Shown here one piece after another: positions 39,228-43,407 of a stretch of 55,722 nucleotides of DNA. The DNA lies in the IMG/VR virus record IMGVR_UViG_3300042923_000857, positions 1 through 55,722 of that record. One strand, written 5' to 3'. Origin of the DNA: a virus. Under the pieces are notes generated by a model. That model made no database searches, had not been told where the DNA came from, and was given only the letters and a program-made list of their open reading frames with translations. Made by a program: the position numbers and the translations under genes. Numbering within the stretch: position 1 is the stretch's first letter; each line of letters opens with the position of its first letter.

Positions 39228-41756
39228 TTAAAAATTTTTGGTTAAGTCCTCTAGATCGAAAAGCGTTGGCATGTCGACCATACTCTCCGCAGCTCTCAGG
39301 TACCCGACTCCATCGCGGAAATAATCGCTGTTCAATTCGATACCGTAACCGCGGCGCCCCATCTTAACCGCTTGGACCGGTACCGTCATAAGGCCGCCGA
39401 ACGGATCGAGCACGACGTCGCCCTTGTTCGAATACCGGTTGATGATCCGCTCTACGATATCGATTTGTAACGGACATACATGCATTTGAAGCCGCTTCTG
39501 ATTCTGCTGGGTGTTAAGGGTCTTCATCCGATTGATGTTGTCCCACACTTCGTCCGACCAGCTACCCGGGGCGACCACCATGAAAGATGCCGGAAGCTTG
39601 CCGTCCTTATCGAGTCGTTTGGCGAGCTCGACATGCTGTCTGTAGTTGTAGAAGGAACGGCGTGAGAACTTCCGATATGCGGCTTGCAGTTTGCTGACCG
39701 GAAGAGATGCGAGTTCTTCCTTTGCGACTAACCGATCCCCGCTCGAGCGCCAGAATCCATGAGCATCGATCTGCCATTGAGCCCGGGTATATTCTTCCTT
39801 GCTCTTAGTGACCGGATCGTCTGCATAAGCCTTGCCGGTGTTCGACGGGAGCCTCCGGAAGAGAAGGATGTATTCCGGGCAACCGACGCCCATCTTCGTT
39901 CCGTCCTTGCATTGCTCCGTCCAGCCGAGGCGATACGTTTGGTTGTTCTCGCGGACCACGTCGGTTATTACCGTGATCATTCCGAAGTATTGGAAGCCGT
40001 GTTGCGTATAATGGTTGATGCAAATTGCATGGAATGGTTCGATGGTCGGCATTCCGGTACCCGTCGCATTTCCGAATAGCACCCGGTCCTTCACATGACA
40101 AGCGAATACCCTTCCCGGCCTAAGCACTCGCAACAGTTGCGGTGTCAGGTGGTCCATCTGTTCGAAGAACCGTGCGGTATCCTCGTTATGGCCGAAATCG
40201 TTGTACGATGGCGTGTATTCGTAATGGTTAGAGAACGGGATCGAAGTATGGATAAGGTCGACGCTGTTCTCTTCCATCGCGGCCGTCTCGAGCACGCAAT
40301 CATTATTCACGGCCGTATATAGCTCCGTTTCAATTTTCACTCTCTCAACTCCAATGCTTCGTGCTAACTTATCGATGATCGACGTTCCGGAAAGGCCGTA
40401 TTTCTTAATGATCTCGACCATTTTGCCGACCAAGTAATCATGCTGCTTCCACTTCTCAAGCAACGTTTTAAGGATCTCTCGCTCGCTTTCCATATAGATG
40501 AAATGGATTTGGCAAGCATAGAGCTGCAGGAAGCGGTGTATCCGGTGAACCGCCTGAATCGTATCGTTGAAGGAGTAGTCGATCCCGGCGAATATCGCGA
40601 TATGGCTTTGCTGGAGGTTGGCGCCAGACCCGAGTATTTCAGGCTTACTCAAAATGACGGTGTATTTCCTTGCCTTCCAATCCAGCAGCCGTTGCTCCTT
40701 CTCTTCGTGAGTAAGGCTGCCGTAAATCGATGCGACCGAGATACCCGCAGACTTTAAAGCACTCTCGATCTCGTCCTGCTCGTCGTTGAGATGGCACCAT
40801 ATGACGATCTGTTCCGGTAGGTTAGCCTTAACGAGCTCCATGACATTTGCCACACGCTGCCCTATGCTATCGCGCTTCTCCCGCGCCGCATCCTTTAATC
40901 CCATGGCCGCGTCGCGCAGGAGAAGCATCTGGCCATCTCGTTCGGATCCCGCCTCGGAATGATCAACGGCGAGCTCATGATACTGTAGATCCAATTTCGG
41001 TAAGTCATATCCTTCATCGGAGTATCCGAGGTCTGAAGGCTTGGTGATGAACAATGCCCAGGTCGATACCCATAACCAGAACTCATCTTCTTTGTGCGGG
41101 TAGAGCGTCAGATTATTGGCCTTCGTGCTGTCCCTCTGGAAGAAGCGTGTTAGCGCCTGACCAGTATCCATCACCTCTAGATACCCGGCGTAATGGATGA
41201 GCTCCTTATATTTGTTCGGGCTTGGCGTCGCCGTACAAACGAGCTTGAACGGTACGCCTTCGAACTTATCGAGGAACGTTTGATAGGTCTTGGTCCCGTA
41301 TCCGCGCAGAACAGAAGCTTCATCGAGCGAACATGCGGTAAAGTAGTTCGGGTCGATGTCACCGTCCCGTACCCGCTCGTAGTTGGTGAGAAGGATCCTT
41401 CCCTTGGCCGCCTTAACTTCCGCCATCGTCCGGACATACTCAGGAGCATCCATCCCCAACAGGTTGACGGCATCGTTAACGAACTCCTGTTTTACTCCAA
41501 GGGGCATGACGATTAGTGCTTGACCTCCTATCCGGTCCGTAACGATGCGGCAATACTCGAGCTGTTGAAGCGTCTTACCGAGCCCGAACTTTGCAAATAT
41601 CGCCCGTCTGCCCCCGCGAACCCCCCATACGACTCCATCCCGTTGATGGGGCTTTAATATCGGATGGACTTCATCGGGTGATATTTCGAAACCCGATTCC
41701 TTGGCGATTACTATCTTAGATTTCAGGAATTCGAGATAAGAACTGATTTGTATCAC
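39228..41756 (-). CDS. SNF2-type helicase fused to an N4/N6 DNA methyltransferase
   Basis: The 842-residue fusion has a SNF2 helicase at residues 30-450: GLGKT (58-62), DEAS (145-148), TATPSPN, GSGANLQQ and QAVHRIHR. A beta-class amino-methyltransferase occupies about 475-830, with a catalytic motif IV written SIPF (505-508) instead of DPPY and motif I DPFGG (784-788). No nuclease domain is seen, so this is not a complete restriction enzyme. Phage helicase-methylase fusions such as P1 DarB protect DNA from restriction. The start is unclear: GTG 41756 lies inside GAGGTGAT, which looks like the ribosome site itself. Confidence 0.9.
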   Translation of the reverse strand: MIQISSYLEFLKSKIVIAKESGFEISPDEVHPILKPHQRDGVVWGVRGGRRAIFAKFGLGKTLQQLEYCRIVTDRIGGQALIVMPLGVKQEFVNDAVNLLGMDAPEYVRTMAEVKAAKGRILLTNYERVRDGDIDPNYFTACSLDEASVLRGYGTKTYQTFLDKFEGVPFKLVCTATPSPNKYKELIHYAGYLEVMDTGQALTRFFQRDSTKANNLTLYPHKEDEFWLWVSTWALFITKPSDLGYSDEGYDLPKLDLQYHELAVDHSEAGSERDGQMLLLRDAAMGLKDAAREKRDSIGQRVANVMELVKANLPEQIVIWCHLNDEQDEIESALKSAGISVASIYGSLTHEEKEQRLLDWKARKYTVILSKPEILGSGANLQQSHIAIFAGIDYSFNDTIQAVHRIHRFLQLYACQIHFIYMESEREILKTLLEKWKQHDYLVGKMVEIIKKYGLSGTSIIDKLARSIGVERVKIETELYTAVNNDCVLETAAMEENSVDLIHTSIPFSNHYEYTPSYNDFGHNEDTARFFEQMDHLTPQLLRVLRPGRVFACHVKDRVLFGNATGTGMPTIEPFHAICINHYTQHGFQYFGMITVITDVVRENNQTYRLGWTEQCKDGTKMGVGCPEYILLFRRLPSNTGKAYADDPVTKSKEEYTRAQWQIDAHGFWRSSGDRLVAKEELASLPVSKLQAAYRKFSRRSFYNYRQHVELAKRLDKDGKLPASFMVVAPGSWSDEVWDNINRMKTLNTQQNQKRLQMHVCPLQIDIVERIINRYSNKGDVVLDPFGGLMTVPVQAVKMGRRGYGIELNSDYFRDGVGYLRAAESMVDMPTLFDLEDLTKNF

Positions 41757-41781: not shown

Positions 41782-43407
41782 TTACTGATTGATCACATCT
41801 AGAATTCTGCATCCGATCTCGAATGCAAGGATAGACGTCACACCGTTTCCAGCCATTTTATAAAGCTGCGAATCGCTTATGCCTTCCTTGATTCCGGTCC
41901 GTTGGATCAGGGATAGGACTTGCTCAGTAATGTCATTTCGAGTCATATCGATCTGTTCGATTAACTCTGGGTGACGGAAAAGCTTGAGTTTTACATACCA
42001 CCAATCGGGATAGCTCTGAAGACGGAAACATTCGAGTGGGGTGAGTTTGCGGATGCGATGTCCGACGACAGCGTGATTATTGTCTTGATAACTGTTCGAT
42101 GTTAATGTCGGTGCAATGTCATGCGTTCCGCCCTTGTTATAACCTCGCGGTCGTTGGTAGATAAAGTTTCCGCTTGAACCGCCGCCTCCACCTTTCAAGC
42201 AATGAGATAACCCGTCATCTCTTGTTTCAAATCCGCGGCTATGAATAAGGCCGCTCTCAACATCAACGATAACTACCCCATGTAAATCTTGCGCCGTCAG
42301 GGTAAACATTGGCTCTCCAGGTTCCTTCATTCTTCGACCGTTCTGGCGTTTCTCCATGCGGTCAGGAGTCAGTACAGCTCTTGGTTCCTCAACGACCATC
42401 GTTCTTCTGGCCTTAATGTTTGGATTATCATTGATGCCTTTCTGATACCCTGCATCAAGGCAGTAGGCAATGCCTTCACCATTTATGCTGTATTGAGTTG
42501 GCTTGTGATCAATAATCTTAGTAACTGCATTCCCATGCTGCGCAAGTTGTGTTGGGGCAATCCCATCAGGAGCATATATCTTACCTGTACCGCCGCTGTC
42601 ACAATCTAGTTGACCGGCAATAACGATTTTCGGTTCATTTCCTTTACTTTGAGCTCTAAGGGTTGGAGCGATTTCGCTCAGCTTATTAGATTTATTTCTA
42701 CCCTGATCATCAAGTATCTTCGGTTCCTGCCTACCGCCCTGCATCGTGGAAAGTGCCGGTGCTACCCCCCCAGTTCCGTAGACTCGGTTCCATTGATCTT
42801 TTCCGGGGAGTGCGAGTCTTCCAATGACATCAATAGTTTTGCTGTTTTCTCGTCCGAAAGGAAATATTTTTCCGGCACTGCATCCTCTAAGACTTGCGAC
42901 AATGAATATCCGCTCTCGGTTTTGAGGAACGTAGGCCGCGCTGTTAAGCACTTGCCATTCTCCCACGTACCCCAACTCATCCAATGTGCCGAGGATAATT
43001 CCGAGCGTTCTTCCTCCGTCATGGTTTCTAAGTCCGTCCACATTTTCAAGGAGTAGAAATTCGGGTCGGAGAACAGATGCGAACCGGACGACTTCAAAAA
43101 AGAGAGTACCTCTAGTCTGGTCTGCAAATCCTTCACGTTTTCCAGCAATGCTGAAAGTTTGGCATGGAAATCCGGCAGCGATAAGCCGTACGCCTCCGTC
43201 GATTCGTTCTCCGAGTTCCCGAATAGATCCATCTGATACATCTCTGATGTCATATGCGCTCCATAACCTCCTTTCAGGATCGTGTAGCACCTCATAAGCT
43301 TGATGAGCGTATTTATCCCACTCGACGTAACCAACACACTCCATACCCGCCTGTGTGAGTCCATGCCCTATACCGCTTATGCCGGCGAATAGTTCAAGGA
43401 ACTTCAT
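41782..43407 (-). CDS. Cytosine-5 DNA methyltransferase
   Basis: The 541-residue enzyme has motif I at LFAGISGIGHGL (residues 6-17), catalytic PCQ at 81-83, ENV at 121-123, QNRER at 162-166 and the C-terminal KMAGNGVTSILAFEIG. Residues 225-470 form a long target-recognition region. There is no partner nuclease, so it is an orphan enzyme likely used against host restriction or for gene control. The N-terminal 550 bases also encode a second protein-like frame (42762-43253). Confidence 0.95.
   Translation of the reverse strand: MKFLELFAGISGIGHGLTQAGMECVGYVEWDKYAHQAYEVLHDPERRLWSAYDIRDVSDGSIRELGERIDGGVRLIAAGFPCQTFSIAGKREGFADQTRGTLFFEVVRFASVLRPEFLLLENVDGLRNHDGGRTLGIILGTLDELGYVGEWQVLNSAAYVPQNRERIFIVASLRGCSAGKIFPFGRENSKTIDVIGRLALPGKDQWNRVYGTGGVAPALSTMQGGRQEPKILDDQGRNKSNKLSEIAPTLRAQSKGNEPKIVIAGQLDCDSGGTGKIYAPDGIAPTQLAQHGNAVTKIIDHKPTQYSINGEGIAYCLDAGYQKGINDNPNIKARRTMVVEEPRAVLTPDRMEKRQNGRRMKEPGEPMFTLTAQDLHGVVIVDVESGLIHSRGFETRDDGLSHCLKGGGGGSSGNFIYQRPRGYNKGGTHDIAPTLTSNSYQDNNHAVVGHRIRKLTPLECFRLQSYPDWWYVKLKLFRHPELIEQIDMTRNDITEQVLSLIQRTGIKEGISDSQLYKMAGNGVTSILAFEIGCRILDVINQ
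42762..43253 (-). CDS. Protein-like frame nested inside the cytosine methyltransferase gene
   Basis: A 163-codon frame (MTSEMYQMDLFGNSENESTE...) lies wholly within the methyltransferase gene, shifted in frame. A perfect AAAGGAGG (43267-43274) lies 13 bases before its ATG and a GGAG five bases before it. The methyltransferase frame spends two AGG arginine codons there. The region YGLSLPDFHAKLSALLE is the shifted reading of the conserved methyltransferase PCQ motif, so part of its familiar look is forced. The later part (SWGTWENGKCLTA, LSQVLEDAVPEKYFLS) also looks protein-like. It is a plausible dual-coding gene, not proven. Confidence 0.5.
   Translation of the reverse strand: MTSEMYQMDLFGNSENESTEAYGLSLPDFHAKLSALLENVKDLQTRLEVLSFLKSSGSHLFSDPNFYSLKMWTDLETMTEEERSELSSAHWMSWGTWENGKCLTARPTFLKTESGYSLSQVLEDAVPEKYFLSDEKTAKLLMSLEDSHSPEKINGTESTELGG

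Follow-up and report, generated by a model that had tools for sequence, protein, structure and literature searches.

Can the catalytic core of a DNA methyltransferase gene encode a second protein in another frame, and what would such a protein do for the enzyme that encloses it? This question is raised by the virus record IMGVR_UViG_3300042923_000857, 55,722 bases long and here called the window, in which a C5-cytosine DNA methyltransferase gene on the minus strand (frame 0) fully encloses an open reading frame (ORF) in its +1 frame. A sequence-only reading had singled out this 163-codon frame for the AAAGGAGG and the nearer GGAG before its ATG, and direct reading bore out all three, with the ATG at 43253 and a stop that ends at 42762. 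The translated product matches the family phrog_16143 over nearly its full length (residues 1–141 against positions 1–136 of the 139-position profile, E 1.2e-31), and the PCQ motif, motif VIII, motif IX (RKLTPLECFRLQSYP), and motif X of the window methyltransferase all lie in frame 0. The comparisons described below indicate that the nested frame is almost certainly a real, selected coding sequence, and suggest that its product probably acts in trans as the beta subunit of the enclosing methyltransferase (alpha).

Nested-frame relatives were found in 209 of 50,697 phage records and in 61 of 72,556 plasmid records, and these, together with virus and genome scans and annotated records, gave 258 loci with a match to the nested profile (window included), many of them near copies, such that locus counts are not counts of independent events. 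In 257 of the 258 loci, the match is +1 to a C5 methyltransferase or to a methyltransferase remnant at a contig end; the exception is SPbetaL2 (L020), which has the match in the methyltransferase's own frame. Because most loci had been found through the nested frame, we also picked 80 loci via the methyltransferase frame; two were dropped (L273 and L279), and all 78 readable loci have a +1 frame of at least 120 codons around the catalytic motif. From the 257 +1 loci, 248 nested sequences were kept, of which 218 are distinct.

Much of the overlap lies on motifs IV–VIII, and the shifted reading of such conserved motifs might itself be conserved and open by chance, a worry that the sequence-only reading had voiced for the nested start, which it expected to look conserved in any relative. 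To this worry, shuffles in which the methyltransferase protein was held fixed, as in all shuffling used here, provide an answer. Among 93 representatives (<70% nested identity), synonymous shuffling left the +1 frame open with a mean probability of 0.0066, with 8.1 stops expected; seven stop-containing sequences among the 218 were left out of the shuffling and of the stop counts along the genes. The representatives also agreed with nested sequences of <60% identity more closely than the shuffles did, by a mean Z of 3.2 over the first 45 columns, 5.9 over the middle, and 5.9 over the last 30 columns, where all 93 representatives were above 4.3. In two loci of one sub-branch that has lost the nested ORF (L409 and L411), 7 and 8 stops interrupt the +1 frame versus 9.4 and 9.9 expected, a neutral density which argues that the enzyme alone does not keep this frame open. 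Moreover, in a PF00145 survey (56 loci, from which 20 that had no PC motif and 4 weak loci were dropped), the +1 frames of ordinary methyltransferases (n = 10) were open for 18–45 codons only. The chance-conservation explanation was rejected on the enzyme-fixed shuffles, and we regard it as scarcely conceivable.

Could the constraint instead act on the DNA or RNA itself, for example on an operator or an RNA structure? Synonymous sites are indeed constrained, so that the third frame looks conserved too. Synonymous divergence of the host gene (pS) over 73 independent pairs was 0.75 upstream, 0.41 in the overlap, 0.31 in the element described below, and 0.71 downstream, and of the 71 pairs having both flanks, 70 were less diverged in the overlap than in the flanks; between the window and its nearest relative (L002), the corresponding values were 0.74, 0.22, 0.12, and 0.81. 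However, in 87 complete genes, the excess over shuffles was confined to the nested frame and was about zero elsewhere, and over columns 61–180 the +1 frame held 3 stops versus 619 expected while the +2 frame held 906 versus 862 expected. Variability also tracks the nested codon positions: in the element block, the frame-0 codon-position entropies are inverted (1.13, 0.66, and 0.48 bits at positions 1, 2, and 3), and entropy is lower for the +1 protein than for the enzyme (1.11 vs 1.60 bits). Constraint at the DNA or RNA level was rejected because the stop depletion is confined to +1 and is, in our judgment, highly improbable.

The same data address the two checks that the sequence-only reading had proposed, namely stops in the nested frames of relatives and reduced synonymous change, and the latter is the near-universal drop reported above. 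Only seven of the 218 distinct sequences contain a stop, five of them at residue 5–6 before a downstream ATG and one as the natural end, leaving a single true internal stop. Both marks of an overprinted gene were thus found, a +1 frame with fewer stops than chance predicts when the enzyme's protein is held fixed and a synonymous drop confined to the overlap, and the proposal of dual coding across a catalytic core is supported by stop depletion and reduced synonymous change alike. The single true internal stop occurs at residue 85 in Streptococcus suis SSHP-D (L214), whose methyltransferase is otherwise open.

What the nested protein might do is suggested by its C-terminal part. Almost everywhere, the nested protein ends soon after a conserved element with the consensus SLSDILEEQVDEKYFLSEEKT (also given as SLSDILEEQVDEKYFLSEEKTKKLL), whose DNA overlaps the frame-0 stretch after motif VIII. 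Residues ~116–142, the last ~27 conserved residues, form the most conserved part of the protein and are followed in the window by a variable tail (residues ~143 to 163), and AlphaFold modeled the element with high confidence, at a block mean pLDDT (predicted local distance difference test) of 89–97 for residues 121–150. The sequence-only reading had described the later half of the frame as protein-like but not so constrained, and on the constraint it needs correction. In some other methyltransferases the element lies in frame 0, after motif VIII (L020, 30.5 bits; L012, 30.9 bits). Across 344 complete genes, the element was found only in +1 in 324, only in frame 0 in 20, and in both or in neither in none (31 of 375 loci were set aside, 30 as short or split and 1 as weak). 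This presence in one frame or the other had escaped the sequence-only reading, as had the wide spread of the arrangement.

We placed the frame-0 carriers on a quick catalytic-domain tree, built from a random 38 Bacillota-type representatives, the window, and 20 loci of the P1 type introduced below (8 rows without a recognizable core were dropped) and supported by the Shimodaira–Hasegawa-like approximate likelihood ratio test (SH-aLRT) only, with no bootstrap. A staphylococcal-phage group with a frame-0 element falls within the nested-type clade (SH-aLRT 99), and L426 falls separately within the same clade (99); the nested ORF of this group and that of L426 are without the element. In the staphylococcal group, the first ~110 nested residues have persisted for some time at least in the absence of the element, and L409 and L411 suggest that the nested gene can be lost where the enzyme carries the element in its own frame. 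The staphylococcal-phage methyltransferases L412–L425 and L428–L432 are split after motif VIII. In L412 as read, the second half, element included, is located downstream in a different frame. Two values of the distance between the halves occur among these genes, which suggests an insertion between them.

Since the nested protein carries a piece that the enzyme lacks, it is probably the enzyme's missing partner. In the arrangement we propose, translation of the nested protein would begin at the ATG that follows AAAGGAGG and GGAG, cross the catalytic core to motif VIII with a one-base shift relative to the enzyme, and end soon after the element. Some other C5 methyltransferases have the element as an ordinary component following motif VIII; the window enzyme has no own-frame copy, and beta would supply it. 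Alpha and beta would thus arise from one stretch of mRNA and may assemble into the active enzyme, in which beta would be needed for activity or specificity. As to its origin, a frame-shifting deletion after motif VIII may have moved the element into +1 and given the enzyme a new stretch in its place.

Alternatively, the nested frame could encode a genuine protein with a separate function, such as anti-restriction or host take-over, which merely shares the DNA, the likeness of the element being a relic of its origin. This explanation would accommodate the staphylococcal group, where the nested ORF is open without the element, and nested proteins gave no convincing Pfam or NCBIfam match and no match to a solved-structure family. 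Nevertheless, no stand-alone nested homologue, that is, no relative outside a methyltransferase gene, was found among the 258 loci and a further 86 of the P1 type. Every locus has the element in one of the two frames, and nested ORF decay is seen only where the enzyme has the element, which together point to a role in the enzyme. We consider an independent job rather unlikely and favor the beta subunit. Two candidates for stand-alone homologues were rejected, L020 because its match is the element in frame 0, and the phrog_1008 matches because they are +1 ORFs of another methyltransferase group.

Using the diverged nested frame L004 as a query, we matched 139 phage records, that of P1 among them, and 531 plasmid records, some of which are P1-like plasmids. 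The +1 frame was found again in P1 dmt, Vibrio phage PS10B.1, Mycobacterium phage NihilNomen, and Pseudomonas phage UF_RH7, and in 86 of 86 loci of this P1/Vibrio/Mycobacterium type the nested frame is +1 to the frame with motif VIII. As these loci were collected as stop-to-stop stretches, their stop count is zero by construction and was replaced by a count by column, in which 49 P1-type loci differing by more than 25% had no +1 stops over columns 121–240. Over columns 217–228, the +1 protein entropy is 0.58 versus 1.49 bits for the enzyme, and in the P1-type element block the entropies of frame-0 positions 1, 2, and 3 are 1.09, 0.54, and 0.34. In phage P1 itself (L434, AF234173.1 66710–67198), the unannotated +1 frame within dmt (66412–68328) has a proposed ATG at 66728 and ends in a conserved RYFLSSKACAGILRRGEKRRKSLP stretch. 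A profile comparison of the nested family A8 with the P1-type family A7 gave a probability of 97.9 over the C-terminal half, and one of A8 with the phrog_1008 type gave 91.2 over the N-terminal part only; both values may partly reflect the shared methyltransferase frame, and for this reason neither comparison was used as proof. We infer a common origin for the window and P1 types. Among the L004 plasmid matches, 448 of 531 are from Escherichia and many are P1-like, and in NihilNomen (L436) the methyltransferase is annotated as two genes, 123 and 124, of which 123 contains the intact nested frame.

The window methyltransferase encodes 3 of its 39 arginines by AGG, and the sole AGG-AGG pair among its 541 codons (codons 46–47) lies exactly at the Shine-Dalgarno-like site before the nested start, confirming the paired AGG codons remarked on in the sequence-only reading. 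An 8-base Shine-Dalgarno match was reached in none of 500 synonymous shuffles of this stretch (mean 3.7). The +1 frame is mechanically open upstream of the nested ATG too, as far as an ATG at 43364. In a frameshift explanation, ribosomes would slip from the methyltransferase frame into +1 and stop after the element, making it the end of a short isoform. Such slippage would fit the start codon and Shine-Dalgarno sequence not being conserved in all groups, but the +1 frame is stop-free and selected from the proposed start, ~100 codons before the element, and in most P1-type loci where both are readable 92–99 codons separate the first ATG from the KYFLS motif downstream. Lacking motifs IX and X, such an isoform would also be incomplete as a methyltransferase. 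We hold a frameshift product to be improbable and retain a separately initiated beta subunit.

Several observations weigh against the beta-subunit interpretation. The nested start is not uniformly conserved, as an ATG at the exact column together with testable upstream sequence is present in 42 of the 93 representatives. In a metagenomic subgroup (n = 24) the ATG is kept in 21 versus 15.8 expected, mostly without a Shine-Dalgarno sequence, and outside the window the Shine-Dalgarno excess over shuffles is modest (5.4 vs 4.8 bases, P 0.002). A frame-0 element is detectable in only some ordinary methyltransferases, and the staphylococcal representatives keep 113 nested codons open without it (0 stops vs 5.7–8.3 expected), implying that beta would do more than carry the element. 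The AlphaFold model is poor for the nested N-terminal part (mean pLDDT 64.7, predicted template modeling score [pTM] 0.30), and a Foldseek search with it gave no match among solved structures. In the model of the frame-0 enzyme L399, residues 196–306, which include most of the element, have a pLDDT below 50, and the place of the element in an ordinary enzyme is hence not readable. Finally, virion mass spectrometry of Streptococcus phage SpSL1 is reported to have detected almost only structural proteins (PMC6755750), which says little about the nested protein.

The same phage indicates that the arrangement is compatible with function. In SpSL1, methylation of 102 of 113 target sites in vivo is reported (PMC6755750). 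Its methyltransferase gene contains the nested ORF (189.5 bits), unannotated, with the element in +1 only. A window-type enzyme with both frames intact is therefore active in vivo.

A small polypeptide in another frame inside the gene of a large one is also found in the two-polypeptide C5 methyltransferase M.EcoHK31I (YGGCCR), where the small polypeptide is encoded out of frame within the gene of the large one. The large subunit of M.EcoHK31I is described as holding motifs I–VIII and X together with the recognition domain, which leaves motif IX alone to the small one (PMC3404938). Compared with this description, the window gene differs in that its small frame ends with a different element and its motif IX is in the large frame. 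The position of motif IX sets the window gene apart from the EcoHK31I type proper, but the window methyltransferase probably works in the same way. It also differs from M.AquI, likewise a split two-polypeptide C5 methyltransferase (PMC3404938). In M.AquI the small subunit comprises the distal portion of the enzyme, with motifs IX–X, both of which are in frame 0 in the window, and is not a product carrying a post-motif-VIII piece.

The EcoHK31I description is fitted much better by the phrog_1008 type, whose +1 ORFs lie within C5 methyltransferases at seven loci (L392, L394, L519, L520, L521, L522, and L393). In all seven, a motif-IX-like stretch (such as LMGFPIGW) lies near the end of the +1 ORF and is missing from frame 0, while motif X is in frame 0 in six (L393 is without it). 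One such ORF, REDBUD_51 of Paenibacillus phage Redbud, is annotated as 'g50 internal gene' and, like the window ORF, is a +1 ORF inside a C5 methyltransferase, but carries motif IX. With the phrog_1008 type, there are two cases of a +1 nested product carrying a part that its host enzyme lacks.

A precedent is phage MM1 1998, whose record names the pair orf13/orf14 alpha and beta, whereas most other records annotate the methyltransferase only. Its 'C5 methyltransferase beta subunit' (AAZ82426, phrog_16143) is of the same family and in the same +1 nested position, the name beta being a label only; 17 of 18 aligned nested-family members match phrog_16143. A hidden out-of-frame ORF inside a phage methylase gene is also described for ShiLan-type insertions, where it encodes an HNH endonuclease (PMC11855218). 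These are, by that account, mobile insertions with the ORF in the third frame, unlike the window, where the overlap is on the catalytic core itself. The literature searched, which covers few subscription journals, yielded no account of the dual coding, the element, or the spread.

Taken further, we lean slightly towards a large class of C5 methyltransferases (in Bacillota, Proteobacteria, and Mycobacterium phages, and including that of P1) being two-subunit enzymes with the small subunit in +1, and a structural piece having moved between frames more than once. A conserved same-strand overlap that is long, fully nested, and located over a catalytic core is rare. This nested frame spans several phyla, and selection on it is so strong that the usual pattern across codon positions is inverted. 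If correct, our proposal would explain why many phage C5 methyltransferases are without a piece that others have, would predict an unannotated protein in phage P1 and hundreds of prophages, and would mean that overlapping genes can trade a functional part beyond adding a new protein. The element in frame 0 or +1 offers natural replicates for studying how overlapping genes share function, and any recoding of a methyltransferase of this kind would destroy the second gene unnoticed.

Table. Positions of the two frames and of their landmarks in the window
Feature	Position	Strand	Basis
C5-cytosine DNA methyltransferase, 541 aa (alpha; frame 0)	41782..43407	minus	PF00145 E 5.1e-60; phrog_116 E 1.5e-86; HhaI chains E ~1e-36
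Nested ORF, 163 aa, proposed beta subunit	42762..43253	minus, +1 to methyltransferase	phrog_16143 E 1.2e-31; relatives; selection tests
AAAGGAGG, Shine-Dalgarno-like	43267..43274	minus	13 nt before nested ATG; formed by methyltransferase AGG-AGG codons
Nearer GGAG	43259..43262	minus	5 nt before nested ATG; read directly
PCQ catalytic motif codons, frame 0, within overlap	43159..43167	minus	residues 81–83 of methyltransferase
Motif VIII (QNRER) codons, frame 0, within overlap, directly before element	42910..42924	minus	residues 162–166 of methyltransferase
C-terminal element of nested protein, ~residues 117–142, SLSQVLEDAVPEKYFLSDEKTAKLLM	42828..42905	minus	inverted codon-position conservation; one-frame-only presence; high pLDDT

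Adjoining the methyltransferase gene, a large ORF occupies positions 39228–41756 of the minus strand, and its translation, by our own reading, resembles a helicase together with a second DNA methyltransferase.
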